Assembly (NCBI RefSeq): GCF_001280515.1
Contig: NZ_LBIQ01000031.1
Span: forward strand, 1-64,000
DNA length: 64,000 bases
Source: Mangrovimonas sp. ST2L15
Lineage (GTDB): Bacteria > Bacteroidota > Bacteroidia > Flavobacteriales > Flavobacteriaceae
Direction of reading: 5' to 3'
In this document: in pieces, positions 1 through 17,151 of the stretch
Numbering within the stretch: position 1 is the stretch's first letter
Layout of the letters: each line of letters opens with the position of its first letter
Translations under genes and position numbers: made by a program
The notes under the pieces: generated by a model
Seen by the model: only the letters and a program-made list of their open reading frames with translations
Told to the model about the DNA's origin: nothing
Database searches by the model: none

Positions 1-125
1 GCATACAAGATTTTTTTCTTGCCATAAGGCGATTCAAATTCCTGATCATTGCCTACAATATGTTCCCTAAACTTTGAAAAATAAGCTTCAAGCTCCGTTA
101 TTTGTTTAACATCCGAATCCATCAT
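1..125 (-). CDS. Aminotransferase class V-like protein, N-terminus only (runs off the window)
   Basis: Reading the minus strand from an ATG at 125 gives an open frame that is still open at base 1: it begins MMDSDVKQITELEAYF and ends in SPYGKKKILYA. An N-terminus with the pattern FR-x-H-I-x-G followed by SPYGKKKI-x-YA matches my memory of class V (cysteine-desulfurase fold) PLP enzymes of Bacteroidota, where it is followed by DWTASGR. That continuation lies outside the window, so the family call is an inference from about 41 residues. The start could be either of the two adjacent ATGs (125 or 122). It lies 23 bp downstream of the DsbD stop in the same orientation, so it could be co-transcribed with it. 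Confidence 0.55.
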   Translation of the reverse strand, partial: MMDSDVKQITELEAYFSKFREHIVGNDQEFESPYGKKKILY

Positions 126-148: not shown

Positions 149-2140
149 CTAATTTTGTTTTTCAAAAACCTCTAATCCATTTTGCAGGAAAATCCCATAG
201 TCTTCTTCGCTAGGGGTATATCCCACTGGCTCTGTCAATACTTCATTTTTATTCGGATTGAATAAGACGTAATAAGGTTGAGAATTTGACTTAAAGAATT
301 GGGTTTGAAAATTGGCCCATTTATGACCGTAATTTTTAAGTCGTCTTGTCCCCCCATTGACCCTATTCACCTCTATCTGTTGATCCTCAGGAAGATCCTT
401 TTTATCATCCACGTACAAGGAAATGAGTACGTATTCATTCCTTAAGTAATTGTCTATGTTTTCTAAAGGCCAAATATGCTCTTCCATCTTTCTACAATTC
501 ACACAGGCATATCCAGTAAAATCAATCATGATGGGTTTGTTAACCTGCTTAGCATAGGCAATACCTTCTTTCAAATCCTTGAAGGTTTTTAAATTATTTG
601 TATTTGTACTTGGCAAGATCCAACTGTATCCCACTGGTGGTGCCAAACCGCTTAACAAGGTTAAAGATGTAAACGTATTAGTCTCTTTATTTACCCTAAA
701 TCCCGATGCCAAATAAATGACAAAGCATGTAACCAAAATGCCTCCTGCTATTCTAGGGAATGATATTTTTTTGATAGGTGAATCATGAGGAAATTTAATT
801 TTTCCAAAAAGATACAATGCCAGCCCTACAAAAATAATAATCCAAATGATCAAGAAAGGTTCTAACTTTAAGATCCCCCACCTTTTAACCAAATCGGCAT
901 TTGATAGGAACTTAAATGCCAAAGCCAATTCCAAAAATCCTAATATGACCTTGGTAGTATTAAGCCAACCACCCGATTTAGGTAAAGCATTCATCATATT
1001 AGGGAACATGGCAAACAAGGCAAAAGGTAAACCTAAAGCCAAACCAAAACCGGCCATACCTGTTGTAAGTTGCCACGCCCCACCATCAACTGTCAATGAA
1101 CCAGCCAACAACGAACCTAAAATAGGACCTGTACAAGAAAAAGACACTATGGCAAGGGTTAATGCCATAAAGAAAATTCCAATAATTCCACCAGCATTCT
1201 CTCCCTTGGTTGTTTTATTTGTCCAGCTTGCCGGTAATGTCAATTCATAATATCCAAAAAATGAAAAAGCGAAAAACATGAATATGGCAAAAAACACAAT
1301 ATTCAACCAGACATTGGTGGATATTTCATTTAAAATATCGGGGTTTACCGAATCTAAAAGATGAAACGGAACACTCAATATTAAATAAACCATTAATATA
1401 AAAAAACCATAAAGAAGAGCTTTTGAAACACCTGAGCTCTTATTCTGGTCTCCTTTTTTGGTGAAAAAGCTCACCGTTAAAGGAATCATTGGGAATACAC
1501 AAGGTGTCAAAAGTGCTAGTAATCCCCCTAAAAAGCCTAAACCAAATATACTCCAAAATGATTTTTGTTCAACTGAAGTATTTGTAGTTAACTGAATATC
1601 CTCTGGAACCATCCCATACAATAACTTATTTGTTTGATTATTATCAACAGTATTGTTTTCTAGATTTTGTCCAGCTTGGGTTGTATCTTCAACAAGATTA
1701 AAAACCAATTCAACTTCGGTAGGTGGCAAACATTTACTATCATCGCACACCATAAACTCCACAAATCCTTTAATAGTTTTGAACTCCTTATCTACATGTA
1801 TTTTTTGTTTAAAAACGGTTGATTTTTCAAAATACTTGATTTTCATTTTAAAAACCGGATCGTCCACAATATGGCCTTCTTCTTCGGAAGTGTTTCCTAA
1901 TATTTTAAAGCTCTCCTCTCCATTCTCATAGGTAAACGTTGTCGCAATAGGGCCGTTTTCTGGAACTGTTTGAGAATACAAATGCCATCCCGTCTCAATA
2001 TCTGCAACTGTTATTAAATGATACTCTGTTTCAGAAATTTGTTCAACAGAGGTTTTCCACTTTACTGGATCATGTATTTGCGAAGATGCATGGAATCCAT
2101 AAAAAACTATTAAGATAAGTATCCAGTACTTTTTCATCAC
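149..2140 (-). CDS. dsbD: DsbD-type thiol:disulfide interchange protein
   Basis: This inner-membrane protein passes electrons from cytoplasmic thioredoxin to periplasmic thiol proteins. The 663-residue product has the full three-part layout. A signal peptide (about 1-20) precedes a periplasmic DsbD-alpha domain with the redox pair C132/C137 (VCDDSKC). The central membrane domain (about 195-485) has its two buried cysteines at C214 (LTPCVFPMIP) and C336 (SFSCTGPI). The C-terminal thioredoxin domain has C546-VN-C549. No key cysteine is missing. It starts 24 bp after the M16 peptidase stop on the same strand, at the far end of a locus that also encodes two thioredoxin-fold lipoproteins, which are its plausible electron acceptors. 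It could also be a housekeeping gene that simply adjoins the locus. Either of two consecutive Met codons may be the start. Confidence 0.93.
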   Translation of the reverse strand: MMKKYWILILIVFYGFHASSQIHDPVKWKTSVEQISETEYHLITVADIETGWHLYSQTVPENGPIATTFTYENGEESFKILGNTSEEEGHIVDDPVFKMKIKYFEKSTVFKQKIHVDKEFKTIKGFVEFMVCDDSKCLPPTEVELVFNLVEDTTQAGQNLENNTVDNNQTNKLLYGMVPEDIQLTTNTSVEQKSFWSIFGLGFLGGLLALLTPCVFPMIPLTVSFFTKKGDQNKSSGVSKALLYGFFILMVYLILSVPFHLLDSVNPDILNEISTNVWLNIVFFAIFMFFAFSFFGYYELTLPASWTNKTTKGENAGGIIGIFFMALTLAIVSFSCTGPILGSLLAGSLTVDGGAWQLTTGMAGFGLALGLPFALFAMFPNMMNALPKSGGWLNTTKVILGFLELALAFKFLSNADLVKRWGILKLEPFLIIWIIIFVGLALYLFGKIKFPHDSPIKKISFPRIAGGILVTCFVIYLASGFRVNKETNTFTSLTLLSGLAPPVGYSWILPSTNTNNLKTFKDLKEGIAYAKQVNKPIMIDFTGYACVNCRKMEEHIWPLENIDNYLRNEYVLISLYVDDKKDLPEDQQIEVNRVNGGTRRLKNYGHKWANFQTQFFKSNSQPYYVLFNPNKNEVLTEPVGYTPSEEDYGIFLQNGLEVFEKQN

Positions 2141-2164
2141 TTCAAATTGTTTTTCTTGTTTACA

Positions 2165-5125
2165 TTAATATCCAAATAGTTCTTCCAAGCTTACCATTCG
2201 AAGTTCTCCTATTTTCTTAAGATCTTCAGTAGTAATATGATCTTTTGAACCAACTATGCAATAGGTATAGAACTTATTTGCAACCTTTTGATTATGAAAA
2301 TCTTTAATTTGCTCAAAATCGATCATATCTACAGCTTCATAAATAGATTTTCTTAAATCATAATCAATTCCTTTTTTTAGAGCGTTGTAATATAATCTAA
2401 TAGGCTCACCTTCTGTAATTCTTTGTGTTTGAATGGATTTCTTTATAGCTTCTTTAGCCAATTTAAATGATTCTTTATCCTCAGGTAAATCATTTAAAAG
2501 CTCATTCATGGCAGCCACGGCTTCTAACATTTTGTCTGATTGACTCCCAACATAAGCACTCATTTGAAACATCTGTTCCTTTTTGTATGGAATGATATAG
2601 GATGCATAAGTAGAATAGGCCAATGCCTTAGACTCTCTAATAGTTTGAAAAACGATAGATCCCATTCCCCCACCAAAATATTCATTAAAAATGGATATCA
2701 TAGGCTCTTGAGAAACATCATATTGCTCCACATTTCTTACCCATCTTATTTCACTTTGTACCATGTCATAGTCAACAAACAATACCTTGTTTTCTAACTG
2801 CTTGGTATATTTAAATGTTTTCTTTTGCGGGTAGGAATTAAAAGTTTTAGGTAATGGGTGATTGACTTTCAACTTAGTTTCAAGCTCCTTAACCGTTAAT
2901 GGACCATAGTAGGACACTTCATGTTTAAATTTTAACAGGGAATGTAATAAGTCAACCAATTTTTTTGAAGTAATGTTTTGAATATCCTCATTGGACAACA
3001 CATCGTTGAACGGGTTTTTCTCACCATAAACTGCATAATTGTTCAAACCAGAAAAAATATTTCTCTTATTTGATTTATTATCTTTCCTAATTTTAAAAAT
3101 TCTTGATTTTAATTCTTCTAAAGCATTTTCATTGGCTTCGCAATTGGAGATAACATATTCAAACAATGAGATTAGCTCATCAAAATTCTCATTAAGCCCA
3201 TAAAAATTTACTGTAGTTTCCTCATTACTAACATTAATAGAATAATTACTCGCCAACGCGTATAATTTTTTATTCAATTCTTCTGACGAATATTTATTGG
3301 TAGATAAATATTTAAAATAACTTATTGCTAAAGGCAAATAAGCATTGTGATATTCTCCCATATCGAAACGATATGTCATATTGAATAATTGATTTTCATC
3401 ATTATGCACATATAGCAATTCGGTATTCCCATAGGATACTTTTTGAAGGTCCTTTTTAAAATCAACCCAGCTTGGTTGAATGGGTTCCTCCTTCATTGAT
3501 TTTATATTTTTCACAAAAGCCGACTGTTTACCTGCATTAGTTTCAATAGGAGTAATTGGCGGCTTTTCTACATTCATTATACTCTTATCCGTTCCCTTTC
3601 TTTTATAAACAGCTACATAATTTTCTCCGAAGTATTTATTTGCTACCCTAACAACATCTTCCTTCGTTATTTTTGACAAATTGGTTAATGAGGCCACTTC
3701 CTCATCCCATGCATTTGAATTACTTTTTATATATACGCTAAGTAAAGAACTCAATCTTCCATTATTAAATTTTAATGCTTGTTGCTCCTGAAGTTTGTAA
3801 TTAGATATTATAGCTGCTAGAAGGTCACTACTGAAATCCCCTTTCTTTAACTTCTCAATCTCCCCCATCAAAATATCTTTAACTTCATCTAAAGATTGAC
3901 CTTCCTTTGGGGTTCCTGCAACGGCAAACACTCCATAATCCTTAAGTTGCATATGGAAGTTATAGGCCTCCTGCAAAACCTGTTTTTGCTTGATATTAAT
4001 ATCAAGCAATCCTGCCTTTCCATTACTTAAAACATTTGAGATCAAAGACAATATTCTGGCGTCTTTTGTATTATATTCAGGAGTCCTCCAAGCAATACGT
4101 ATATTTTCCGCTGTTGGACCAAAGACCTCTCTTGTAATTGGTTCACTTATTGGTTTCTCTGGTTTTGGATTATAGCCATCAAATGTTTTAGCCGCCATAT
4201 AGGAAAAATGATTGTCTATTTTTTCTATTAGCAAGTCTGGATTAAAATCGCCTACCATGATGATAGCCATGTTATTTGGCACATAGTAGGTTTGATAATA
4301 GTCTTTAATGGCAGAAATAGATGGGTTTTTTAAGTGTTCTATGGTACCTATCGTCGTTTGTTGCCCATAATTGTGAGTAGGAAAAAGAGCATCACTCATT
4401 TTTTCCATCACTTTTCTACCATCATTGTCTGAGGATCTATTTTTTTCTTCATAAACGGCTTCTAATTCTGTATGAAAAAGTCTTACTACAGGATTCCTAA
4501 AACGTTCTGCCTGTATATCTAAAAACTTATCAATAGCATTTGATGGTATATCTTCTTTATAAACTGTTTCCTCTACCCAAGTATGAGCATTTGTACTTTG
4601 AGAACCAATTTCTGTCATGAGCTTATCATACTCTCCTGCAATTGCATATTTTGACGCCTCATTTGATACTTGGTCTATTTTTGTATAAATTTCTTTCCGC
4701 TTATCTGGATCTGTTGTTTTATTATATACTTCATAAAGTTCTTCAATTTCCTGCAACAAGGGAGCTTCCTTTTCCCAATCTAATGAACCAAACTTATCAG
4801 TCCCTTTAAAAAGGATATGCTCTAAATAATGAGCCAACCCTGTATGTTCTTTCGGATCATTGTTACTTCCTGCTCTAACTGCAATATTCACAGCTATTCG
4901 AGGTTCCTTTTGATTGACACTTAAGATAACTTGCAAACCATTATCCAGGGTATAAAACCTTGCCTGCATGGGGTCATTAGAGACATATTTATACGTATAA
5001 CCATTTGAAGTTTTCTCTTCCCAATGAAAATCATTTTGTTGGGAAAAGCCTTTAAATAAAACCAAAAATAATAGGACCAAAAGGAGTGACTTGTTGTTTT
5101 TAAAATTTATATGTTTCATATTCAT
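2165..5125 (-). CDS. Periplasmic M16 family zinc peptidase (insulinase/pitrilysin type)
   Basis: A 986-residue secreted protease with a signal peptide (hydrophobic stretch about 13-27) and the inverted zinc motif H99-Y-L-E102-H103, with a third glutamate ligand in VYEEKNR near residue 226. The length fits a two-repeat M16 chain in which the second half lacks the HxxEH motif. That half carries the conserved Arg/Tyr element RESKALAYS near residue 830. M16 enzymes enclose and cut peptides and small proteins. The known example linked to TonB import is FusC, which degrades imported ferredoxin. Here it sits between the TlpA lipoproteins and DsbD, consistent with degrading a substrate brought in by the SusCD pair. 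A gap of 248 bp with two inverted repeats separates it from the upstream tlpA gene, so it may have its own expression level. Confidence 0.92.
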   Translation of the reverse strand: MNMKHINFKNNKSLLLVLLFLVLFKGFSQQNDFHWEEKTSNGYTYKYVSNDPMQARFYTLDNGLQVILSVNQKEPRIAVNIAVRAGSNNDPKEHTGLAHYLEHILFKGTDKFGSLDWEKEAPLLQEIEELYEVYNKTTDPDKRKEIYTKIDQVSNEASKYAIAGEYDKLMTEIGSQSTNAHTWVEETVYKEDIPSNAIDKFLDIQAERFRNPVVRLFHTELEAVYEEKNRSSDNDGRKVMEKMSDALFPTHNYGQQTTIGTIEHLKNPSISAIKDYYQTYYVPNNMAIIMVGDFNPDLLIEKIDNHFSYMAAKTFDGYNPKPEKPISEPITREVFGPTAENIRIAWRTPEYNTKDARILSLISNVLSNGKAGLLDINIKQKQVLQEAYNFHMQLKDYGVFAVAGTPKEGQSLDEVKDILMGEIEKLKKGDFSSDLLAAIISNYKLQEQQALKFNNGRLSSLLSVYIKSNSNAWDEEVASLTNLSKITKEDVVRVANKYFGENYVAVYKRKGTDKSIMNVEKPPITPIETNAGKQSAFVKNIKSMKEEPIQPSWVDFKKDLQKVSYGNTELLYVHNDENQLFNMTYRFDMGEYHNAYLPLAISYFKYLSTNKYSSEELNKKLYALASNYSINVSNEETTVNFYGLNENFDELISLFEYVISNCEANENALEELKSRIFKIRKDNKSNKRNIFSGLNNYAVYGEKNPFNDVLSNEDIQNITSKKLVDLLHSLLKFKHEVSYYGPLTVKELETKLKVNHPLPKTFNSYPQKKTFKYTKQLENKVLFVDYDMVQSEIRWVRNVEQYDVSQEPMISIFNEYFGGGMGSIVFQTIRESKALAYSTYASYIIPYKKEQMFQMSAYVGSQSDKMLEAVAAMNELLNDLPEDKESFKLAKEAIKKSIQTQRITEGEPIRLYYNALKKGIDYDLRKSIYEAVDMIDFEQIKDFHNQKVANKFYTYCIVGSKDHITTEDLKKIGELRMVSLEELFGY

Positions 5126-5176
5126 TAAGGTTGTGTTTGCATTTAAGTAGTAAAATTTGATTCATTATTTAAAGAA

Positions 5177-5205
5177 CCGCCCCAAAATGATATGGTCTGA
5201 GGCGG
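5177..5205 (-). terminator. Possible hairpin upstream of the M16 gene
   Basis: Inverted repeat CCGCC/GGCGG (5177-5181 and 5201-5205). Read on the minus strand the second arm is followed by TTCTTTAAAT, a weak terminator-like tail. It lies between the tlpA stop at 5374 and the M16 start at 5125. Confidence 0.3.
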
Positions 5206-5275
5206 CCTTCCTTTAAAAAAAAACTAAAAACTACTTATTTACTTATAATTATTGAAATGGGACTATTTAGGTTTT

Positions 5276-5311
5276 ATAACACCCCCAGCTATAGTAAACT
5301 GAAGGTGTTAT
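5276..5311 (-). terminator. Inverted repeat in the tlpA-M16 gap
   Basis: Perfect 8-bp arms ATAACACC (5276-5283) and GGTGTTAT (5304-5311) with a 20-nt loop, placed 63 bp after the tlpA stop on the minus strand. It has no clear T-run, so it may be an attenuator, an RNA-processing hairpin or an operator rather than a simple terminator. Confidence 0.35.
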
Positions 5312-5373
5312 GGACTAATTCAAATAATTCCCTTTGTTATTGAAAAATTTCTGTGAATAGTTTGTGTAATTAC

Positions 5374-6756
5374 TTAATCTAGGAGTTGCTCTAAAATTTT
5401 CTCTAATTCTGAATTGGAAGGTCTTGGTGCATTTGCCATAATTATATTACTTTCTGGATCCAATAAAATAAACCTTGGAATTCCTTTAATGTAGTAATCT
5501 TGAACAAACTGAGATTTAAAATCATTATCTGCCATTAATTGAACGCCTTCTAAATTTTCATCTTTCACCATTTTTTTCCATTTATCACGATCTTGTTTCC
5601 TGTCTATGGAAATACTAATAAATTCTATGTCTTTATCATGATATTTCTCTTCAACTCTTTTTAAATGTGGTATTTCTGCTTTACATGGTCCACACCATGT
5701 AGCCCAAACGTCTATATAAATGTACTTACCCTTAAAATCTTCTAAAGAGGAAGTTCCTCCCTTAAAATTTTCATAATCTAGGAACTTAGGTGAAGGATTC
5801 CCTTTTGCCACTTTTCTGAGCTCATGATAACTATTGGTAATTTCCTTTTTATGTTCTTCATTACTCGATCCTTTCATAAATTCTTCATAGTAAGCTTCTA
5901 GTTCATTGGTATATGTAATACCATATTGAGCTTTTTTATAGAGTAATAAATCTTTAATGGTTTGATTAGATAAGGTATTATAAGTCTTTAATATTGCTAG
6001 GTCTTCAGCAATACCGGTAGCTTCTGATAGTTTATTGGCTTCTCTCTTACAATAATCATTCAACAAAGAATAATATGCATAAGAAAATAAAAAGTCTTCT
6101 TCTCTATTGTAGTCAAAATTGTCAAGTTCCTTCAAAAATCCTTGGGAAACTTTAAAAGTTGAATCTTTAGCATAATAAGCATGGTTAGCTTCATAGTTAG
6201 AAAGATTACTTAAATAGGTATATTCTATATTTCTTCTTTCCTTTTCTATATACTTTTCTGGTAAATTCTCAGTACCATCAAGTAAAGTCTTAGAAACATT
6301 ACGAACTTCATCTTGCTTTGATTTAAATGTTGATTCGTCTAAAAGGTATTTATTCACATCCTTTCCAATAACTTCCTTTTCTTTCCTCCTTTTTGAAATT
6401 AAGTAACTATTGATTTCTGATCCTACACCTTTAAATTGAATGGTTTCATTAAAATTCTCACTATCATAGTTAATTTCTAAGTCATCCCCTGCTTCTAAAT
6501 ATAAATACAAGAGATTGCTGCCATCATAAACCATCAAGTTCTCGGCCTTAATTCTTAAGGTATCTTTAAATGTTCCTGTACTATCTAAATCAACGGTTTT
6601 TGACAAGGAGTTTATCATACCACTGAACTGTAACTTATTCGTTCTTGAATTTAAAATAGTTCCATTGATAAGAACATAGTCTTTCTTTTCTGTTTCTTGA
6701 GAACAGGAAAGAAAAGCAAGAGGGGCAAAAACTAGCAAATAAAATAACTTCTTCAT
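5374..6756 (-). CDS. TlpA-like thioredoxin-fold lipoprotein with DUF4369-like N-terminus
   Basis: A 460-residue lipoprotein: the signal peptide ends at a lipobox with C18 (AFLSCSQ). The N-terminal part (about 25-110) resembles the DUF4369 beta domain found before TlpA domains in Bacteroidota, followed by a long helical middle. The C-terminal thioredoxin domain (about 320-460) has the active site W354-C-G-P-C358 and a cis-proline in KGIPR near residue 427. Such proteins reduce disulfides in the periplasm. The residues after C18 (SQETEKK) are less acidic than in the neighbouring SusD, so surface display is less certain. It lies 49 bp downstream of a second TlpA gene, and the pair probably takes electrons from DsbD. 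Substrate unknown. Confidence 0.88.
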   Translation of the reverse strand: MKKLFYLLVFAPLAFLSCSQETEKKDYVLINGTILNSRTNKLQFSGMINSLSKTVDLDSTGTFKDTLRIKAENLMVYDGSNLLYLYLEAGDDLEINYDSENFNETIQFKGVGSEINSYLISKRRKEKEVIGKDVNKYLLDESTFKSKQDEVRNVSKTLLDGTENLPEKYIEKERRNIEYTYLSNLSNYEANHAYYAKDSTFKVSQGFLKELDNFDYNREEDFLFSYAYYSLLNDYCKREANKLSEATGIAEDLAILKTYNTLSNQTIKDLLLYKKAQYGITYTNELEAYYEEFMKGSSNEEHKKEITNSYHELRKVAKGNPSPKFLDYENFKGGTSSLEDFKGKYIYIDVWATWCGPCKAEIPHLKRVEEKYHDKDIEFISISIDRKQDRDKWKKMVKDENLEGVQLMADNDFKSQFVQDYYIKGIPRFILLDPESNIIMANAPRPSNSELEKILEQLLD

Positions 6757-6805
6757 TTTAATAATTACTTTTAATTAAAGGATGGAATGTTATAACTAAC
6801 CTTCT

Positions 6806-8017
6806 TTATTTAGTAGAAAAAATATCATCTAACATTTGATACATATCAACCTTTTCTGGATTCTTAGAGCTATAAATAATTTTGCCTTTTGGATCTAAAA
6901 CAATTTTAGTTGGGAAAGAATTGACATTAAAAGGAATTAAAAGATTCGTTTCATTGGTGCTTCTTATGTGGGTCCAATCATAATTTTCTTTTTCAATGAT
7001 ATCCCTCCATTTTTTATCTGTATCTCCTTGATTTACCCCTACAACCGTAAAATTTTTATTGGCATATTTTTGACTATACTCCTTAATTTTTGGAATTTCC
7101 GCCATACAAGGACCACACCACGTCCCCCAGTAATCCAGTAGAACATAGTTACCTTTTAATTCTGACAATTTAAATTCTTTACCATTTAAGGTGTTCAATG
7201 TAGTGAGTTCTGGAGCAGACATTCCGATTCCTGTATTTTCAACTGCTGAAATGCGCTCTTTAGCTTCTTCATAAAAAGGAGTACCGTCCAAAGTTGAGCT
7301 ATCAAAACCATTAAATAGAGCCTTTGCTTCTTCATGTGTAAAGTATCTTCTGTAGTAGGCATCATTAAAGACATAGGATGCAGCAATAGATTTGGGATGC
7401 GACTTAATAAAATCCGTTTTTAGGACAGTTACTTCCTTACTTAACTTATCCCTTCTTTCATATAGGCTTTTTACCTCTTCTTCATTTAAATCACTAGTAG
7501 AAATAGCTACTGAAATAGAATCCATGGTATTCAAAAGAGGGAATATTTGTGAGTTAATCAGCGCTAAATCATTATTAATACCCAATGAATCTGAAGGATA
7601 TGCATCTACCATATAATCTACTATTTTTCCATTATAGGAGATTTTAGCTCCAGGAAAACCAATGAACCATAATCGGCTTAAATGTGCTTTGACCGAAGCT
7701 TGATATTCCTTGTCCCCTACCTTTACCTTATAACTTCTTAGAGCTTCAGGAACACCTATGTAATATAACTTATAACCCTCTATAGAATCCTTGAAAGTAA
7801 ATTTTTGATCTTTTATCCCAAGGGTATCTCTATGATAACCAGACGGATCCTTATCATCTTTTTCATAGTATACCAAATAATCGCTCTCAAGTCCTTCTAT
7901 ACTAGCATTTAATGTGAATGTTTTTGGTATTTCTTTCACTTCTTCACCAGACTTGTTTGACTTACAATTAAGCATAAGAATGGCCGTAAGCAAAAGGAGG
8001 TTTGCTTTAATATTCAT
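6806..8017 (-). CDS. TlpA-like thioredoxin-fold lipoprotein
   Basis: From the ATG at 8017 the product is 403 residues: a signal peptide with C18 in the lipobox (LMLNCKS), a beta-rich N-terminal part, a helical middle (about 150-260) and a C-terminal thioredoxin domain with WCGPC at about 300-304 and a conserved proline in NSFPTK. I prefer 8017 over the upstream ATG at 8041 because the upstream codons add a charged MVSKKHID segment ahead of an already complete signal peptide. It shares its layout with the adjacent tlpA gene but is diverged, so this is an old duplication or two distinct partners. Predicted role: periplasmic disulfide reductase for the substrate of the SusCD system. Confidence 0.87.
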   Translation of the reverse strand: MNIKANLLLLTAILMLNCKSNKSGEEVKEIPKTFTLNASIEGLESDYLVYYEKDDKDPSGYHRDTLGIKDQKFTFKDSIEGYKLYYIGVPEALRSYKVKVGDKEYQASVKAHLSRLWFIGFPGAKISYNGKIVDYMVDAYPSDSLGINNDLALINSQIFPLLNTMDSISVAISTSDLNEEEVKSLYERRDKLSKEVTVLKTDFIKSHPKSIAASYVFNDAYYRRYFTHEEAKALFNGFDSSTLDGTPFYEEAKERISAVENTGIGMSAPELTTLNTLNGKEFKLSELKGNYVLLDYWGTWCGPCMAEIPKIKEYSQKYANKNFTVVGVNQGDTDKKWRDIIEKENYDWTHIRSTNETNLLIPFNVNSFPTKIVLDPKGKIIYSSKNPEKVDMYQMLDDIFSTK

Positions 8018-8122
8018 GTCTATATGTTTTTTGGAAACCAAAACGAAGATTTTTTATCACCTTCGTTTTGGCAAGGATTAATAACTTATAATCTAGATAA
8101 TGATTGTTATTTAAAAAGGACT

Positions 8123-9097
8123 CTAATTGGTATAAATATTTGAAGGCCAATCTTGACCATCTGTTCTGGTAAGGGTAAATGTTCCATATTCATCATAGGA
8201 AACAGTGTAATAATAGGTCCATTCCACTGTAATTGTTGGGCCATCAACATCAATAATATTCCATTGTTGCTGTCTCCAAGTGTCATCTATAATTTCCACT
8301 AAACCAGTATCATAACTGTAACTAAGAGCTCCTGGCCCTCCGTAATAATAATCACAAGATAAATCACTTACGTCATAAACAGTAAAACTACCTGGTTGAA
8401 GTGCCATAGAAATGGTTCCTGTTTGGCCTACCTCTACATCACCCCAAGTAACACCTCCAGCAGAAACCTCAATCCATTCATAATCATAAGTACCTTCCCA
8501 AATAGGAGGAGCAATTTCCACAATTCTAGACCCCATAGAATAGGTACAATTAAAGTCAAAACAATCCTTACGAGTATCCACAACAGCACCATCTTGACCA
8601 GTAATTACCCATTTAAATTCAAATATGTCGCTTACCAAAACGTCCCCGTTATGGTTAGGTGAAAATTCACTACTAAAAAGGTCTGCGAGTTGGTCTTTGG
8701 TTACAGTAATCATAAATGTGCTTTCTGGGTCAACTATTGTTTCAAGTAACTTTCCTTCAGAACCACCCAAATAATTAAATGTTCCATTATTGTTTTCCTC
8801 TGCAAAAGCATAAATTTCAACTTTACTTATATCAGAAACAGGGAATTCACCTATTTCCAATGACACTTCATAATCGATTGAGGTTAAGTACCAATACTCC
8901 TCACCTCCAGTCTCCAATTCAACATAATATTCAAATTGGTTTGTCCCATTTTCATTAGAAGGTGTAAATTTCAAATAAGCATCATCTTTCCATGTGATTT
9001 CATAAGGATCTGGCATTTTCACATCATCATTTTCTTCACAAGATTGAACAATTGGAAGCAATAATAAGCCCAGACATAACAAAATTATTTTTTTCAT
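8123..9097 (-). CDS. Putative surface lipoprotein of a SusCD locus, function unknown
   Basis: I do not recognise a family. The 324-residue product has a lipoprotein signal with C20 (IVQSCEENDD). The acidic run directly after the cysteine fits the Bacteroidota surface lipoprotein export signal. The rest is rich in aromatic residues, glycine and acidic residues, with beta-strand character throughout, and includes the cysteine-containing segments DCFDFNC and SCDYYYGGPG. It lies between susD and the tlpA pair, 75 bp after the susD stop, which is the usual place for an accessory substrate-binding surface lipoprotein. Binding of the imported ligand is an inference from position only. Confidence 0.7.
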   Translation of the reverse strand: MKKIILLCLGLLLLPIVQSCEENDDVKMPDPYEITWKDDAYLKFTPSNENGTNQFEYYVELETGGEEYWYLTSIDYEVSLEIGEFPVSDISKVEIYAFAEENNNGTFNYLGGSEGKLLETIVDPESTFMITVTKDQLADLFSSEFSPNHNGDVLVSDIFEFKWVITGQDGAVVDTRKDCFDFNCTYSMGSRIVEIAPPIWEGTYDYEWIEVSAGGVTWGDVEVGQTGTISMALQPGSFTVYDVSDLSCDYYYGGPGALSYSYDTGLVEIIDDTWRQQQWNIIDVDGPTITVEWTYYYTVSYDEYGTFTLTRTDGQDWPSNIYTN

Positions 9098-9172
9098 TAC
9101 TAATGTTTTTTAATTAAAGTTATAGGTTATATACTTTGGGTGTTCCTTTGAGAACATCCCTCAACTTGTGAT

Positions 9173-10585
9173 TTAGTTTAAATTGGGGTTTACATCTCTT
9201 ATGGATTGAGCAATTCTAACCACATAGCCATCATCTCCCGGACTTAATGTAAACTCTTCTCCTGTTAAAGGATGAACTCTAGTAAAGACAGGTACTTCGT
9301 CGCCATACACATGGTATCTTTTTTGGTCAAATAGATTTAAAGATGAGCCCGCTAATTCCTTTCTTCTTTCATCCTTCACCAATTGTAAGGTTGTAGCATT
9401 ATCAGTAAAAGCAAGTGGCGTAAAGGATTCTAATCTATTAGGCAGCAAAACATTTAACATATCGATAGCACCTTGACCATCTCCAGTGCGCACCTTGGCT
9501 TCAGCATTAGTTAGCATTAACCTAGGAACACTTAGCCCATTACATCGCTCTGAATTGGCGTACATGTAAATATAATTTGGAGACACATCAATACCCGTAC
9601 TTGATGTTTGAGTTGCAAATAAATACCATCTTCGATCATTATCCTGATCATAAAGTGAAACCAAATCTGGAGAATAGAGATGAAATGGATTTGCAAATGA
9701 CCAATAGATATATCGGTCCCATATAACTTCCTTATTTAGCGTACTAGAGTACCATTGACTTCCATTGTTATAACCAGACCATGGATTTGATGGATTTGTA
9801 AAATCAATAGTGTTGTAGTCATACAGAAAATCATATTGCTCTAAAGCAAGATTAGAGTTTTCAACTGCTTCTTCAAAATTGCCCATATACAAATTAACTT
9901 CTGCAAGTAAAGCATATAATGAAGCACGACCTGGTCTAAAATTTGCATAGGAATTAATAGCATCATAATTTGAATCCAATAAGGCTATAGCTTCATTTAA
10001 ATCTGTTAAAATTTGAGCATAAACTTCACTAACCGAAGATCTCCCCAATAATGCCTGAAGATCAATTTCTAAAGGCATCGCTACCCCTGGTTCATCCGGG
10101 TTTGATGGATCAAAATGATGTGCATACTGATTAACCGTTAAAAAATATTCAAAAGCTCTTTGAGCCAATGCCTCTGCTTTAATGTTATTTCTTTTCGAAG
10201 GATCAAAATTCCCAGGTTCAGCAGTATCTACATCTTCCAAAATTTGATTCATAACGTGGATATAATAATAAAAATTATTGTAATCGCTATCTGCATCATC
10301 TGGATTGAAAATATCATGCTGCCAAGTATATGCATTCACACTTGGTGTGCTATTGGAAATACTATTAAAACTTTCCTCCGTGTGGTATACATCAGGATCT
10401 ATAAACCTTGCATTTGTGCCAACAGAACGTAATATGGCATAATCGAGTAACATTTTGTCATAATCCTCCAATGTTGAGGGAATAATATAACCTGTTGGTT
10501 CAACATCCAAAAAGTCATCGGGACTTTGACAAGATGTAAATGATACGAATATGATTACTATATAAATAATATATTTTGCTTTCAT
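9173..10585 (-). CDS. SusD/RagB-family outer-membrane substrate-binding lipoprotein
   Basis: The 470-residue product (start at 10585) has a lipobox with C19 (SFTSCQSPDD) and the classic SusD N-terminus DFLDVEPTGYIIPSTLEDY. An alpha-helical TPR-like first half follows (ALAQRAFEYFL; GRASLYALLAEVNLYMGNF), and the C-terminal part contains the conserved DERRKELAGSSLNLFDQKRY segment. The acidic residues after the cysteine suggest surface exposure. SusD proteins form a lid on SusC and deliver ligand. RagB, of the same family, binds peptides rather than glycans. An upstream ATG pair at 10618 directly abuts the SusC stop, but the 11 extra residues precede an otherwise standard signal peptide. No glycoside hydrolase is nearby; the neighbours are thioredoxins and a peptidase. 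Confidence 0.93.
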   Translation of the reverse strand: MKAKYIIYIVIIFVSFTSCQSPDDFLDVEPTGYIIPSTLEDYDKMLLDYAILRSVGTNARFIDPDVYHTEESFNSISNSTPSVNAYTWQHDIFNPDDADSDYNNFYYYIHVMNQILEDVDTAEPGNFDPSKRNNIKAEALAQRAFEYFLTVNQYAHHFDPSNPDEPGVAMPLEIDLQALLGRSSVSEVYAQILTDLNEAIALLDSNYDAINSYANFRPGRASLYALLAEVNLYMGNFEEAVENSNLALEQYDFLYDYNTIDFTNPSNPWSGYNNGSQWYSSTLNKEVIWDRYIYWSFANPFHLYSPDLVSLYDQDNDRRWYLFATQTSSTGIDVSPNYIYMYANSERCNGLSVPRLMLTNAEAKVRTGDGQGAIDMLNVLLPNRLESFTPLAFTDNATTLQLVKDERRKELAGSSLNLFDQKRYHVYGDEVPVFTRVHPLTGEEFTLSPGDDGYVVRIAQSIRDVNPNLN

Positions 10586-10618
10586 AGTTTTGCTCTTTTT
10601 ATATTGTTTTAACATCAT

Positions 10619-13600
10619 TTAAAAGGAGACTCTCACTCCAAAAGTGTAACTAGTTAAATTTGTATAAGCCTCTGAATTAGGTGCAATAGGATCTACTCCT
10701 AAATCATTAGCCACCCACAAGAAAGGATTGGCAACCTGCATAGTCAATCGAAGATTTGTTAAGAACGTACGATCTAAAAATTTCTTAGGCATTGTATACC
10801 CCAAAATAATATCTTGAACTCTTAGGTAATCTCCTTTGTGAACATTACGATTAGATTGATTCCAAATGCGGTGCATTGCGCTTGTATCATATCTATTTTC
10901 ATATTCTCCGGTCATAGGATTTAAACCATTATAGAATACTTTTGGAACATCTGTGAATGCTTCATCACCAGGGTTCATCCAACGGTTTGCCCACTCTTGA
11001 TGTAGTCTAATATTCCCAAACCCATAATCATAGTTATTGTAAGAGCCATAACCTGCAGATGCATAGTTATAAGACATTCTGAAAACATAATCAGCTTGAT
11101 AGTTCATATTAACAGTAAGATCCAAACCTTTATAATTGAAGGTTGTAGAAAGACCACCATAGTGTTGAGGCACTGTAGTTCCCACGTACTCCAATTCATC
11201 AATATCAACCGTTCCTCTCCAAGACCTAGTATTACCATTAGCATCATAAAGTAGCACTTCCCCATTGTCATCTAAACCAGCAAAATTATAAGCATAAAGC
11301 CCACCAATTGGCATACCTTCTTCATATGCATTTCCTCCTGTATAACTATCAGCTGTAGGAGCATTGGTTAATTTTGCCTTAGCTAAAATATTTTTATTGT
11401 AATTGAAATTGGCTCTAACCGACCATGTAAAATCATTACTTCTAATGACATCTGCATTCAATTGCAACTCCACACCTTTATTATCAATATCTGCATAATT
11501 TACTCTTGCTGTTGACCAACCTACAGTAGGGTCAATTACTTTTGATGTATAGACATCAGTACTCTTTTTAATATAATAATCTATACTTCCAGATAGCCTG
11601 TTGTTGAAAAAAGCAAAGTCAACACCTAAATTGGTAGTTGCGGTTTCCTCCCATTTCAAATCAGGATTCCCTGGTTGACTAAGCACTAAACTATTATAGG
11701 TATTACCCCATGTAATGTTTCGAACTCGGGCAGTAGGTTCTGGATAAACTCCAATCAAACTATTTCCTCCAAGTCCATAGGTAGCTCTCACCTTCAATCG
11801 GTTAATCCAATTTGCATTATCCAAAAAAGCTTCTTTAGCTGCATCCCATGCTACACCCACCGACCATAACGGTTTGTATCTAAAATCTGGATTGCTTCCA
11901 AAAATATTTGCTTGATCTATTCTGAAACTTCCGTTTAGGGTATACTTATTTTTGAAAGTGTACCCCATATTAGAAAAATAACTTACAAAGCGATTATCTT
12001 GATTGTTGATATCAAACAATTCAGCTGCATAGAAATCATATAATCTAGCTCCAGTCCAATCGACTAAATTATAACTCAACAAAGCTGCTTCATTAATTGG
12101 CAAATAGGTAGTTGATTCTTTATCATACCCAAATTGTCTATTACGCAAAAACTCTGTAAATCTCCTAGAGTATTCTCCTCCAGCAAATACATTCAATTGG
12201 TGATCACCCCATTCCTTATCCCAATTCAATGTGTTCTTAAAGACCCATCCTTTGGAATATGTACGCTCTTGCAAATATTGTGATCCTTTTGGAATACCAT
12301 ATTGATACGAATCTGTATTACTGTCATAGATATAGAAATCATTGACCATATTACGCCATGAAGGCAAATCCATTGATTTAAAGGAATCATAGTCATTCGT
12401 ATTACGCTCATACCTAAAAGAACTACTTAGAGTTAAATCTTTAAGTATTTCTACATCTAATTTAAAATCAGCCCTAATATCTAATAAGGTTCTATCATTG
12501 TCCAGATTTCTGTGTTCTTCTAAATAATTATAGGTGTAGGGAGCTCCAACCAGCGGTTCACGGTCTTGAGACATCCAAGGGTTCCAGCTATAATACTTTT
12601 GAATATACTGCCCATTTTCATCAACCAATTGATCATAGGGCTGCGCCATATAAAACATATCTATTGGGTTAAAAGCTCCATATTGAGTATCAAAACTGTT
12701 ATCATTCTGTTGCCTTAAAACAGCTGTCATACCAGCAGTGAAAGCAATTTTATCATTAAAATCAAAGGTGTTACGCATATTCATGGTATACCTTTCTTGA
12801 TCATCGCCAATGGTTTGTCCTTCAACATCCGTATATGACAGTGACCCGAAAAAAGCATTACGTTCACCTCCTCCTGAAAGAGATAAATTATAGGTCTTTT
12901 GCATAGCATTTCTTATAAAATACTTTTCCCAATCATTCTCTATATTTCTCCTTCTTAATTCGTTCATATAGTTATTATAGGTGTTTTGAGACCAAGTAAC
13001 ACCATCAGGAGAAAGCCCATTTCTATATATTTGAGCCATATGAAAATCATTGATACTGGAATTACTGCCTACCAATCCATTGATATTTGTCCATCCCTTA
13101 TCAATAAATTCTTGATCTAAATCCATTTCTTGAGAAGTAGACATAAGGTTTAAGTCACTTAAGTCAACTTTATTTTCCATTTTGACAAAACTGGAAAAAT
13201 CTACTTTCAAGGGTTGGTTTTTCCCTCCTCTTTTAGTTACAATTACAACCACACCATTTGAGGCCCTAGACCCCCAAATTGATGATGCAGAGGCATCCTT
13301 CAAAATGGTGATAGATTCAACATCTTCTGGATTGATTGACTCTAAATTTTGTTGTTCTGCCAAAGGGAAGCCGTCAACAATTATTAAAGGATTGGCAAAG
13401 GCACTTAAAATGGTAGAACGCCCTCTTATTTCAAAATTGTTGAACCTCGGGTTTATATTCAAACCTGCAACTTGACCAGTGATTCTCTCAATAATATTTG
13501 TTCCAGAAGGTCGCTGTTCAAGTTGGCTTGCCCCAACTTGTGTGAAAGACCCCGCTGTTCTCTCTTCAGAAAGCTCCTGATAACCAGTTAAAACAACTTC

Positions 13601-14248
13601 ATCCAGAGAATTAATGGACTCCTTTAAAACTACATTAATAACATTATCTGAAGAATAATTATTTAAGTTAGATATATCTATTTTTCTTGTAGTAAATCCC
13701 ACATAAGAAAATTCTAATACAGCTTGTACATCCGAAACCTTAATGGTATAATTCCCTGAAAAATCAGTAGCAACCCCATTTCGAGTATTGGCTTCCAAAA
13801 CTGTTACACCAGGCAATGGAATACCATTTTCATCTGTTACTTTTCCTGAAATCTGTATTCCTTGAGCAGTGGCAGAATAATTATTTTTAATAATCTGAAT
13901 GGTATTATGCTCACCCATGACATAATTTAAATTGCTATTTTTTAAACTTTCGTTTAATAAATCTCCAACAAAAAACTCTCCTTTTTTGAGTTGAACTTTG
14001 GGTGCATCCTGAAACAAATTTTTAGGATAAATGAAATGATAATCAGTTTGTTGTTTGATTATTTGAAATACTTCATCCACAGATACTGATTTATTATCAT
14101 CAATAGTAATTTTTTGCTGTGCAAATGAGTCTTTGCCATTTAAACCAAAAACGGTGACGCAAAAAAGAAAAATAAACATTCTCATAGATAAAAGAAGAAG
14201 TCGCCTTCCAAACAAACCTGAAGGCACATGATTTAATTTAATTTTCAT
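10619..14248 (-). CDS. SusC/RagA-family TonB-dependent transporter with N-terminal STN domain
   Basis: A 1209-residue outer-membrane transporter. In order: a signal peptide (about 1-44), an STN/secretin short domain (about 45-120), a carboxypeptidase-regulatory-like beta domain (about 130-215, GKVTDENGIPLPGVTV), a plug (about 220-340, with IIVDGFPL and GSRASNGVVVIVTKRGGK), then the 22-strand-type barrel ending in VRVSF with the terminal Phe needed for outer-membrane insertion. The STN domain is the part that contacts FecR-type anti-sigma factors, and both a fecR and an ECF sigma gene lie directly upstream. So transport occupancy probably induces the locus. The gene follows fecR after 101 bp that contain a strong hairpin. 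Substrate not determinable; peptide is favoured by the neighbours. Confidence 0.95.
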   Translation of the reverse strand: MKIKLNHVPSGLFGRRLLLLSMRMFIFLFCVTVFGLNGKDSFAQQKITIDDNKSVSVDEVFQIIKQQTDYHFIYPKNLFQDAPKVQLKKGEFFVGDLLNESLKNSNLNYVMGEHNTIQIIKNNYSATAQGIQISGKVTDENGIPLPGVTVLEANTRNGVATDFSGNYTIKVSDVQAVLEFSYVGFTTRKIDISNLNNYSSDNVINVVLKESINSLDEVVLTGYQELSEERTAGSFTQVGASQLEQRPSGTNIIERITGQVAGLNINPRFNNFEIRGRSTILSAFANPLIIVDGFPLAEQQNLESINPEDVESITILKDASASSIWGSRASNGVVVIVTKRGGKNQPLKVDFSSFVKMENKVDLSDLNLMSTSQEMDLDQEFIDKGWTNINGLVGSNSSINDFHMAQIYRNGLSPDGVTWSQNTYNNYMNELRRRNIENDWEKYFIRNAMQKTYNLSLSGGGERNAFFGSLSYTDVEGQTIGDDQERYTMNMRNTFDFNDKIAFTAGMTAVLRQQNDNSFDTQYGAFNPIDMFYMAQPYDQLVDENGQYIQKYYSWNPWMSQDREPLVGAPYTYNYLEEHRNLDNDRTLLDIRADFKLDVEILKDLTLSSSFRYERNTNDYDSFKSMDLPSWRNMVNDFYIYDSNTDSYQYGIPKGSQYLQERTYSKGWVFKNTLNWDKEWGDHQLNVFAGGEYSRRFTEFLRNRQFGYDKESTTYLPINEAALLSYNLVDWTGARLYDFYAAELFDINNQDNRFVSYFSNMGYTFKNKYTLNGSFRIDQANIFGSNPDFRYKPLWSVGVAWDAAKEAFLDNANWINRLKVRATYGLGGNSLIGVYPEPTARVRNITWGNTYNSLVLSQPGNPDLKWEETATTNLGVDFAFFNNRLSGSIDYYIKKSTDVYTSKVIDPTVGWSTARVNYADIDNKGVELQLNADVIRSNDFTWSVRANFNYNKNILAKAKLTNAPTADSYTGGNAYEEGMPIGGLYAYNFAGLDDNGEVLLYDANGNTRSWRGTVDIDELEYVGTTVPQHYGGLSTTFNYKGLDLTVNMNYQADYVFRMSYNYASAGYGSYNNYDYGFGNIRLHQEWANRWMNPGDEAFTDVPKVFYNGLNPMTGEYENRYDTSAMHRIWNQSNRNVHKGDYLRVQDIILGYTMPKKFLDRTFLTNLRLTMQVANPFLWVANDLGVDPIAPNSEAYTNLTSYTFGVRVSF

Positions 14249-14299
14249 AAATTTGAATTGTGTTAGTTAGACATCCGATTAATTAATACATCAATTAAT

Positions 14300-14340
14300 A
14301 GCGAAGAGACCTCACACCGCCAAATGTTAAGCTCTTCGCT
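14300..14340 (-). promoter_or_regulatory. Strong inverted repeat between fecR and susC
   Basis: Perfect 9-bp arms AGCGAAGAG (14300-14308) and CTCTTCGCT (14332-14340) with a 23-nt loop. It lies 10 bp after the fecR stop on the minus strand. A T-rich run follows only on the plus strand, where no gene ends. On the coding strand it may therefore be an RNA hairpin that protects or separates the highly expressed susC message from the regulator message. It could alternatively be a bidirectional terminator. Confidence 0.45.
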
Positions 14341-14349
14341 TTTTTATTT

Positions 14350-15474
14350 TTATTCTATAGTTATTAGTTTTCCTTCAATTTTAAAATTGGTAATAAGTCC
14401 GTAGTTTTTGATACTTTTTAGAACATCAACAATAGTTTGATCTCTTCCTAAAACACCTACAAACTGCTCATCCATAATTTTTTTGTTTTCAAAAACAATA
14501 TCAAAATCATACCACCTCGAAAGGACTTTCATAATATCCTTTAATGATTTTCCATCAAAACTAAAAATACCTTCCTTCCATGAGATTTCAGGTTCAACAT
14601 CAACATCAGCTATTACCAAATTTTCTTTCACTAAATTTATGGTTGATTGTTGTCCTGGCATAAGAATTTGGTTATACTCCTCATAAGCAACCTGTACTTT
14701 ACCATGAACTAAAGTGGTGTAAATAAAGGTTTCATCCTTGTAAGCCTTCACATTGAATCCTGTTCCTAAAACTTCAATTTTTTGATTTGTGTTAGAAACA
14801 ACAAATTTAGACCCATTATTTTGGGAGCTAGGTGTAACCTCAAAATAGGCTTCACCATAGACTAATTCAACTTCTCTATCTTGGTTATTTAAAAATGCAA
14901 CAGGGAATTTTAATTGAGAATCAGAATTTAACCAAACCTGAGTACCATCTGATAAACTTAAGGTAAACTGACCACCTCTAGGAATGGTTAAATAATTATA
15001 TTCCAGGTTGCCCCCTTCTGTACTAGAACTATATACTAATTCCTCTCCATCACTTTTGACATACTCGGTCTCATATAACTTTCCTTTTTCAAGTTCTACA
15101 AATGAACCATCTCCTAAGGTTAATACTGCCTTGTCAGTTCCTGTAAGGATTTGATTATCTACAATAACTGGCTCTATTAAAGAAGGTTTATTTTTGGAAT
15201 TAAAGTATATAGAAACAGCTAAGAAGCAAGCAACTGATGCTGCCACTGCAAATTTCCAATATATATTTTTAGAACTTTTTGGTTTAATACTTTTTTGAAG
15301 CCTCTTCCATTCACCTTCAAGATTTATATTGAGTGAATCTGCATTGTAATTTGCCTTTACATTTTCAAAATACCTTTTATGGTGTTCAGACTCTTGGTAC
15401 CATTTGGAGAATACAATCTCCTCCTCAGGAGTGAGGTTATTATTTATTTTCTTAATTATTAATCTAAATTCCAT
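14350..15474 (-). CDS. FecR-family anti-sigma factor
   Basis: A 374-residue inner-membrane regulator. The short cytoplasmic N-terminal domain (about 1-70, with LTPEEEIVFSKWYQES) holds the sigma factor. One membrane span follows (about 72-90). The periplasmic FecR beta domain (about 110-275) contains LTIPRGGQFTLSLSDGTQVW and FEVTPS. A C-terminal DUF4974 domain (about 300-372, SLKDIMKVLSRWYDF) reads the STN domain of the transporter. It is encoded between the ECF sigma factor and susC, the standard order for cell-surface signalling. The signal from a loaded SusC should release the sigma factor 15595-16152. Confidence 0.95.
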   Translation of the reverse strand: MEFRLIIKKINNNLTPEEEIVFSKWYQESEHHKRYFENVKANYNADSLNINLEGEWKRLQKSIKPKSSKNIYWKFAVAASVACFLAVSIYFNSKNKPSLIEPVIVDNQILTGTDKAVLTLGDGSFVELEKGKLYETEYVKSDGEELVYSSSTEGGNLEYNYLTIPRGGQFTLSLSDGTQVWLNSDSQLKFPVAFLNNQDREVELVYGEAYFEVTPSSQNNGSKFVVSNTNQKIEVLGTGFNVKAYKDETFIYTTLVHGKVQVAYEEYNQILMPGQQSTINLVKENLVIADVDVEPEISWKEGIFSFDGKSLKDIMKVLSRWYDFDIVFENKKIMDEQFVGVLGRDQTIVDVLKSIKNYGLITNFKIEGKLITIE

Positions 15475-15594
15475 TTCGGATTTATTTGGCCTTTATATGT
15501 TAGACAAATAAAACCTAAAAAAGGGTGACAAAAAATTTGAAAAAAATTAAAAAAACAGAAATTTAGATAAAAAATTAGTTTAAAAACACCTTCT

Positions 15595-16152
15595 TTATTG
15601 ATGGGATTCAAACATAATAGCCAAAATAGATATGATTTCCGCAATTTTAAGTTTTGCTCTTTTCAATTGTGTTTTTACTGTATTGACGGAAATATTAAGT
15701 TCCATAGCTATTTCAGAATATTTGTAATTGTTAAGATATTTTAATTTGACGATTTCTTGCATACGATCGGGTAAAGAAGTAAGAGCTTTAGACACTTGCT
15801 GATTTAGTATTTTTCTCTCGTCTTCATCACTAAGAGAAATTTCATGCTCAGAAACCAAATTTAAAGCTAAATCCAAAAGCTCGTAATCATCGGTGATCTT
15901 TATTGTTTTTAAGAAGTTTAAGCAACGGTTTCTTACCATTGTATAAGAATAACTTTTTAAGGACACTTGAATATCAATGGATTTGGCATTCTCCCATATA
16001 TAAATAAATACTTCTTGTACTAAATCCTGACTAGAATCTTGGTCAAAAAGAAATCCATTAGCATAGATAACTAAATCTTCATAGTTCTTCTCGAAAAAAG
16101 ATTTGAAGACACTTTGATCTCCTTTACGAATAGACTCAAATACAAGATCCAT
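15595..16152 (-). CDS. ECF RNA polymerase sigma factor (FecI-like)
   Basis: A 185-residue sigma-70 group IV protein. Region 2 is seen in DSSQDLVQEVFIYIWENA (about 38-55) and region 4 in LPDRMQEIVKLKYL followed by the helix-turn-helix YSEIAMELNISVNTVKTQL (about 125-165). There are no extra domains. It is the first gene of the minus-strand locus and is followed by fecR after 120 bp. The start at 16152 puts the region 2 helices at the normal distance from the N-terminus. Expected targets are its own locus, chiefly susC. Transcription is divergent from the TetR gene across a 365-bp gap. Confidence 0.95.
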   Translation of the reverse strand: MDLVFESIRKGDQSVFKSFFEKNYEDLVIYANGFLFDQDSSQDLVQEVFIYIWENAKSIDIQVSLKSYSYTMVRNRCLNFLKTIKITDDYELLDLALNLVSEHEISLSDEDERKILNQQVSKALTSLPDRMQEIVKLKYLNNYKYSEIAMELNISVNTVKTQLKRAKLKIAEIISILAIMFESHQ

Positions 16153-16517: not shown

Positions 16518-17081
16518 ATGCCAAGACTCAAAAAATATAATGAACAAGAGGTGATAGAAAAAGCCATGAATTTGTTTTGGAAACAGGGCTTTGAAAATAC
16601 TTCTATGCAAATGCTAGAGAATGAAATGGGCATTAATAAGTTTTCTATTTATTCAAGCTTTGGTAGTAAAAACGGAATATTTTTAGAAAGTTTGAATTGT
16701 TATAAGAAAAAATTGTATCAATTACTTAGTTCCTTAAGAAAAAACTCTAGTCATATTGAAGATATCAAACAATATTTTTATGACTTTATTGCTTTTTCAC
16801 AAGAGGCAGGTATTAAAAAAGGTTGTTTAATTACTAATACAGCAGGAGAAATTAGAGAAGATGCTGACGCACAAATAAAACAAACCTTAAAAGAATTTAC
16901 TGAAGAAGTGAGGACTATTTTTTCTAACATTTTAAAGAAAGATTCCAACAAAAGCAATGAAATAGTAAACCAACAAGCTGATTATTTAATCATTTCCATG
17001 TTTGGACTTTCTATGGCCTCTAGAATATTCAACCCGTCACAATTAGACAACTATATATTAAACATATTTAGAAACCTTTAA
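16518..17081 (+). CDS. TetR/AcrR-family transcriptional repressor
   Basis: A 187-residue regulator with an N-terminal TetR helix-turn-helix: EKAMNLFWKQGFENTSM followed by the recognition helix KFSIYSSFGSKNGIFLESL (about residues 11-58). The C-terminal ligand domain includes KKGCLITNTAGEIRED, a pattern seen in TetR_C members that respond to small lipophilic or oxidative compounds. The start is fixed by the operator palindrome 18 bp upstream. The gene after it (a peroxiredoxin-like lipoprotein, 70 bp on, same strand) is the likely regulated partner. Ligand unknown. Confidence 0.92.
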   Translation: MPRLKKYNEQEVIEKAMNLFWKQGFENTSMQMLENEMGINKFSIYSSFGSKNGIFLESLNCYKKKLYQLLSSLRKNSSHIEDIKQYFYDFIAFSQEAGIKKGCLITNTAGEIREDADAQIKQTLKEFTEEVRTIFSNILKKDSNKSNEIVNQQADYLIISMFGLSMASRIFNPSQLDNYILNIFRNL

Positions 17082-17151
17082 TATTTTTTAATAAATAACC
17101 GAAAACTAAGGATATACGTTTTGAAAAATTTAATTGGTAAAAAAATATAAT

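Follow-up and report, generated by a model that had tools for sequence, protein, structure and literature searches.

SusC/SusD (SusCD) systems are generally taken to import glycans, and some of the glycan polysaccharide utilization loci to which they belong are controlled by an extracytoplasmic function (ECF) sigma factor and FecR. RagAB of Porphyromonas gingivalis and other SusCD pairs have been proposed to handle peptides; to our knowledge, no TlpA, peptidase or DsbD is linked to RagAB. The Fus systems of Proteobacteria (FusA/FusC, YddB/PqqL) encode a TonB-dependent transporter together with a periplasmic M16 protease, tying this kind of protease to protein import and providing, in FusC, the precedent for import followed by cleavage (PMC6793856). 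The locus considered here is a unit of nine genes, all on the minus strand and running from 16152 down to 149, in a 64,000-nucleotide stretch of Mangrovimonas sp. ST2L15 (the window; bases 1-64000 of the contig that we call C25, so that its left edge coincides with the start of the contig, in a 3.56-Mb genome). It combines a SusCD pair with two TlpA-type lipoproteins, an M16 peptidase and a DsbD, and we think it is probably a substrate-induced system for the use of disulfide-containing peptides or small proteins.

Gene calls and Pfam/NCBIfam matches place the whole set where an earlier reading of the letters alone (the sequence-only reading) had put it, with intergenic gaps of 0-120 bp except for one of 248 bp, which separates the M16 gene from the second TlpA. 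A Bacteroidetes-type ECF sigma factor (15595..16152; TIGR02985) and a FecR-type anti-sigma factor (14350..15474) are followed by a SusC/RagA TonB-dependent transporter (10619..14248; TIGR04056, 4.2e-190, with carboxypeptidase-regulatory-like and plug domains), which adjoins a SusD-like lid lipoprotein (9173..10618; PF14322, SusD-like_3), the arrangement by which SusCD uptake loci are recognised. After a further lipoprotein (8123..9097) come the two TlpA-type lipoproteins, the first also carrying DUF4369 (6806..8041; listed as starting at a TTG, though an ATG eight codons further on is more likely) and the second at 5374..6756; both match Redoxin/Thioredoxin_8 and, from their sequences, have the thioredoxin fold and CxxC expected of TlpA/ResA proteins. 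The M16 peptidase (2165..5125, 986 amino acids) has an N-terminus that looks by eye like a signal peptide, three Peptidase_M16 stretches, two M16_C stretches and the HxxEH motif, as HYLEH, and the DsbD-like thiol:disulfide transporter (149..2140) matches DsbD_N, DsbD_TM and Thioredoxin_2, that is, its N-terminal, membrane and C-terminal thioredoxin domains. The sequence-only reading had thus been right that WCGPC is intact in both TlpA translations, HYLEH in that of the M16, and that the DsbD is complete. Beyond 149, and past the interval of the sequence-only reading, which had missed this tenth gene, the unit continues into a truncated homologue of SufS-like cysteine desulfurases (aminotransferase class V; 1..125, minus strand), cut by the contig start after about 41 N-terminal amino acids.

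By its content this is not a glycan locus, for all that it shares the SusC/SusD pair: there is no carbohydrate-active enzyme among the nine genes by Pfam/NCBIfam, so that the linked enzyme of a polysaccharide utilization locus is missing, and the absence of a glycosidase had been correctly noted before. Nor is it a Fus system, since neither the receptor, where SusC/SusD replaces FusA, nor the type of M16, which comes from another lineage, is that of Fus; ECF/FecR control, the TlpA reductases and DsbD set it further apart, and the main text of PMC6793856 nowhere uses the words SusD, thioredoxin, TlpA or thiol. The likeness lies in the pairing of a TonB-dependent transporter with an M16 protease, in a relative, locus L093, whose M16 is PqqL/FusC-like, and in the variability of the protease, the Fus clusters too having other proteases or, in the absence of FusC, redox enzymes (PMC6793856). 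By analogy, the locus would work like protease-associated import with an added reductive step, a combination of SusCD, TlpA and peptidase on which we found no paper in the open-access literature.

The combination is not peculiar to the window. Counting in the same-strand run downstream of SusD, we found TlpA in 51 of 65 FecR-linked relatives, a recognised peptidase in 21, M16 in 14 and DsbD in 7, against no TlpA, M16 or recognised peptidase and a single DsbD-like gene in 37 glycan-type control loci; Fisher p values (TlpA, about 3e-16; peptidases, about 2e-5; M16, about 0.002) overstate the evidence because the loci are related and not independent. Relatives without FecR (n=33) had TlpA in five, M16 in one and DsbD in two. 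In 50 of the 65 FecR-linked loci TlpA follows SusD with at most one gene in between, and on a tree built from 98 SusD rows the presence of TlpA is clustered, not universal (15 changes vs 31.7 in shuffles). Over the whole 15-kb control stretches, both strands included, the profiles picked up a DsbD-like gene in L221 and TlpA in two stretches, L230 and, weakly and on the opposite strand, L215; for M16 there was no match. SusCD with TlpA and a peptidase is a recurrent locus type. The association that the sequence-only reading had expected from a neighbourhood search therefore stands for TlpA and for a peptidase, and falls for M16 as a conserved part (14/65).

What accompanies these genes also differs from the glycan loci. 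Among 77 other downstream proteins of the test loci, the 25 commonest Pfam families include Peptidase_S9 (6), met-zincin (3) and Trypsin_2 (2) and no glycoside hydrolase (GH), whereas among 75 other control proteins GH43 (10) and sulfatases (6) stand high, with GH2 present too; these were 77 of the 79 unassigned proteins for the test loci and 75 drawn at random from 117 for the controls. The relatives do not consistently carry other catabolic genes in place of TlpA and M16, which the sequence-only reading had named as the outcome that would tell against it: TlpA is in 51 of 65, and peptidases lead among the rest.

Relatives were picked by SusD similarity alone, without regard to TlpA or M16. 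The window's SusD was searched against 397 genomes of the family and 296 of the phylum, stretches were fetched for 40 of the higher-scoring matches, and a SusD alignment, run over a genome collection, supplied 78 further loci; removal of duplicates by SusD sequence took the 118 loci to 109, of which 11 with less than 3 kb downstream were left out, giving the 98 counted. Control loci were chosen by the SusD family PF07980 and came from 26 of the 28 genomes searched; two of 39 were left out, L245, in which no SusD was called, and L230, where the SusD picked was FecR- and TlpA-linked and which would count against the controls if retained. Under the gap rule the run was empty in one control (L228) and in three test loci (L092, L163 and L169), and in L211 and L249 the run read belonged to another SusD of the stretch. 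Recognition of peptidases relied on six query proteins and two M16 profiles, with one M13 enzyme added from Pfam, a limited set with which other peptidases could be missed, in the controls as well; the 21 include neither the M16 of L152, which lies beyond a gap, nor a trypsin-like protein of L130.

Two variants were seen along the way. In L181, L189 and L204 an ATP-binding cassette (ABC) ATPase, an ABC membrane or auxiliary protein and two MutS-domain proteins replace TlpA behind SusD, with an M16 following in L181 and L204; a partial form occurs in L103, where an ABC ATPase and two further proteins precede the M16. In a SusD subclade rich in Prevotellaceae and Bacteroidaceae (L174-L210), a gene of about 860 amino acids lies ahead of SusC, and SusD is often followed by a protein of about 520 amino acids that has no Pfam match (scanned in L206).

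The peptidase differs from locus to locus (S9, an S33-like alpha/beta hydrolase, trypsin/PDZ, met-zincin, M13 and three lineages of M16). Peptidases with no relation to each other, and M16 enzymes of different lineages, have thus ended up behind such SusCD pairs, and to us this is the strongest sign of a polypeptide substrate. The commonest M16 of the relatives carries HFLEH and, in its representative from L093, matches PqqL (2.9e-76) and FusC (1.6e-42), the closest entry being 9ldy (1e-176). For the window's own M16 the values are only 3.7e-11 for FusC and 3e-09 for PqqL, which places it outside the FusC/PqqL type, and it forms a separate lineage in the tree, so that the parallel with FusC drawn for it by the sequence-only reading needs correcting. 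Its nearest neighbour in that tree, with full support, is a 66% identical protein from a Galbibacter SusC-SusD locus.

We also considered the M16 as the gene that defines the system, and rejected this. A search of 149 genomes found homologues of the window's enzyme (at least 765 bits) in 33 genomes other than its own, on stretches of 8-20 kb, several of them cut at contig ends, and these 33 stretches have no SusC or SusD match. In 28 of them, homologues of the 188- and 290-amino-acid genes of L040, which we read by eye as EF-P and SucD, lie near the M16. The window's genome has an EF-P/sucD-like row without M16 on C10 (L250), judged by gene lengths and a sucD-like match.

The sequence-only reading had been unsure whether DsbD belongs to the unit. 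By position it does, with a gap of 24 bp from the M16; by necessity it does not, since DsbD and the desulfurase homologue also pair up without an M16 among the matches compared. Among 20 loci chosen by their HFLEH-type M16, the next gene on the same strand is DsbD or its N-terminal part in 10, and SusC and SusD lie upstream on the same strand in 9 (six genes off in L258); a close relative of the window's DsbD (993 bits) is in L119, a SusCD-TlpA-M16-DsbD locus. A second full DsbD (46%) is encoded elsewhere in the window's genome. In L093, L254, L256, L262, L263, L266 and L273 the M16 is followed by a protein of about 148 amino acids matching the N-terminal part of DsbD, which precedes a full DsbD where the stretch shows one; the window's genome has a lone match to this part at C29:368333-368794.

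The frame at 1-125, which runs off the contig, has about 41 residues; by eye they look like the beginning of the aminotransferase class V protein encoded after DsbD in L093, and the L093 protein matches C25:3-98 with 63% identity over 32 residues. At full length, the L093 protein is closest to SufS-type cysteine desulfurases, its 149.5 bits against a sufS cut-off of 475.1 making it a distant SufS homologue. Other pieces in the window's genome are N-terminal at C7:3-101, like C25 at a contig start, and C-terminal at C21:298545-298727 and C22:46208-46384; together with C25 they look like two copies broken by the assembly, which would hide what follows the unit. A separate SufS-like protein (29%) is on C24.

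Where DsbD and a neighbouring peptidase occur together, a desulfurase homologue adjoins in 8 of 16 loci, a count that may be low, several of the stretches stopping shortly past DsbD. Among the eight loci without it, L152 encodes a serine-dehydratase-alpha protein (PF03313), from a family that we take to include a cysteine desulfidase, and L177, which has DsbD and no peptidase that we saw, has a protein of the cysteine-synthase family. The desulfurase homologue is present in 78 of 149 genomes (E 1e-60 or better); in at least 25 of the 149 it has a DsbD no more than 4.5 kb away, with M16 beside the pair in 9 of these 25 among the matches compared (44 for DsbD, 72 plus 3 for M16, so that these adjacency counts are lower bounds); another one, in G014 (locus L121), is accompanied by a trypsin-type enzyme. 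Ten DsbD relatives were listed with at least 70% identity to the window's: the desulfurase adjoins six of them, and for these six no M16 is among the matches compared. We rejected the idea that DsbD is exclusive to the unit, given that most DsbD-desulfurase pairs are without M16 among those matches. From this adjacency, often without M16, DsbD and the desulfurase homologue emerge as a pair of their own that repeatedly joins the import locus, and DsbD as a recurrent but facultative partner. To judge from its sequence, the putative desulfurase beside DsbD adds to a theme of cysteine and disulfides.

The extra lipoprotein behind SusD has no Pfam match. Acidic residues after the lipid-bearing cysteine, a feature that can mark surface export in Bacteroidota, are there as the sequence-only reading had claimed, and no family was matched. 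Among 16 aligned homologues a cysteine pair is present in 11 (C-x4-C, or C-x5-C in one) and absent in 5. The predicted model (predicted local distance difference test score 87, predicted template-modelling (TM) score 0.63) is all-beta apart from short helices; a fold search with it gave no telling match (best E 9.2e-04, TM-score about 0.2), and profile searches of PHROGs and the Protein Data Bank were uninformative.

The proposed disulfide-peptide system rests on gene content, motifs, recurrence, the replacement of one peptidase by another and the DsbD/desulfurase linkage, from which we infer the import of peptides and the disulfide nature of the substrate. SusD, probably with the extra lipoprotein, would capture the substrate and SusC would import it, driven by TonB. 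The two TlpA lipoproteins would then open the disulfides, recharged with electrons that presumably come from DsbD, and the peptidase, here the M16, would cleave the reduced substrate in the periplasm, its likely location, after which the fragments would enter by a further carrier. Occupancy of SusC may be the signal on which the ECF sigma factor and FecR induce the unit, and the desulfurase homologue would perhaps act in the cytoplasm on the cysteine released. An extension, which we offer tentatively, is that the purpose is sulfur scavenging, with cysteine-rich peptides imported by SusCD, reduced, cut by interchangeable peptidases and their cysteine sulfur taken by the desulfurase, all in one inducible unit.

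As to transcription, promoter and terminator scans gave no excess over shuffles, and in the regions inspected there was no full match to the Bacteroidetes-type promoter pattern. Two inverted repeats can be seen by eye in the 248-bp gap between the second TlpA and the M16 (5126..5373, minus strand), possibly an attenuator or an insertion scar; the terminator scan gave none there. Divergently, beside the sigma gene (plus strand, 16518-17964), lie a gene that looks by eye like a TetR-like regulator and one for an AhpC/TSA-family lipoprotein.

Several observations weigh against the disulfide-peptide system. The SusC had been described as bearing an STN domain; the SusC itself is well matched (TIGR04056), and the N-terminal STN is sub-threshold (Pfam STN E 0.0013, 19 bits, cut-off 28.4). 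No recognised peptidase was found in the same-strand run of 44 of the 65 FecR-linked loci, and 8 of the 65 have neither TlpA nor peptidase, three of these having an empty run. A SusD branch of 20 rows, mostly Prevotellaceae, Bacteroidaceae and unclassified Bacteroidales, is without TlpA, and one test locus has a sulfatase, another a GH16-domain protein bearing a type IX secretion system tail. Among the matches compared, 16 of the 25 DsbD-desulfurase pairs are without M16, and the desulfurase gene of the window is a fragment, the assembly holding no comparably close counterpart of the middle part. Finally, when the profile of the SusD clade is set against solved structures, the best match is 8ypt (1.7e-61; 'Membrane protein', an entry for which a literature search found no paper), and several entries deposited as sugar-binding SusD proteins, such as 3lew (4.9e-36) and 3kez (1.1e-34), outscore RagB (4e-13); the SusD structure matches do not favour peptides.

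The match to RagB, though not the best, and the SusC/SusD-type transporter shared with RagAB would also fit a general peptide importer of that kind, in which TlpA and DsbD would serve only to keep the system's proteins in their proper redox state, whether or not the substrate contains disulfides. TlpA-type lipoproteins are common in Bacteroidota, and the cysteine pair in 11 of the 16 extra lipoproteins could be what TlpA serves. However, TlpA is absent from the run after SusD in all 37 controls, and so is not a general need of SusCD, and the linkage to a desulfurase points to cysteine; moreover, the cysteine pair is absent from five of the 16 lipoproteins, and at least two such loci (L143 and L144) retain TlpA. 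We regard a general importer as rather unlikely.

More doubtful still is metal piracy like the uptake of ferredoxin, in which an imported metalloprotein or metal-peptide would be reduced and digested for its iron, copper or zinc and the desulfurase would serve iron-sulfur assembly. An M16 with a TonB transporter is the Fus arrangement, the other proteases and the redox enzymes of Fus clusters (PMC6793856) count in its favour, and the M16 of L093 is PqqL/FusC-like; but the receptor is SusC/RagA and not of FusA type, the window's M16 is not FusC-like, and the 25 commonest families of the test-locus proteins include none for the storage or transport of metals. Defence, by the uptake and destruction of cysteine-rich antimicrobial peptides, would also be served by capture, reduction and proteolysis, and the ABC-transporter variant of four loci could be read in that direction; yet the several copies of the SusD clade in some genomes (in G380, for example, four matches at 43-48% identity) are more suggestive of nutrition, and we consider defence very improbable, although no search was directed at immunity genes.

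If the disulfide-peptide system is real, a recurrent class of loci that couple disulfide reduction with proteolysis would provide Bacteroidota with a defined way to obtain sulfur and nitrogen from proteins, and neighbouring TlpA and peptidase genes would let annotators tell peptide from glycan SusCD pairs. Protease-associated import would then also reach beyond the Proteobacteria, in which such import was described (PMC6793856).

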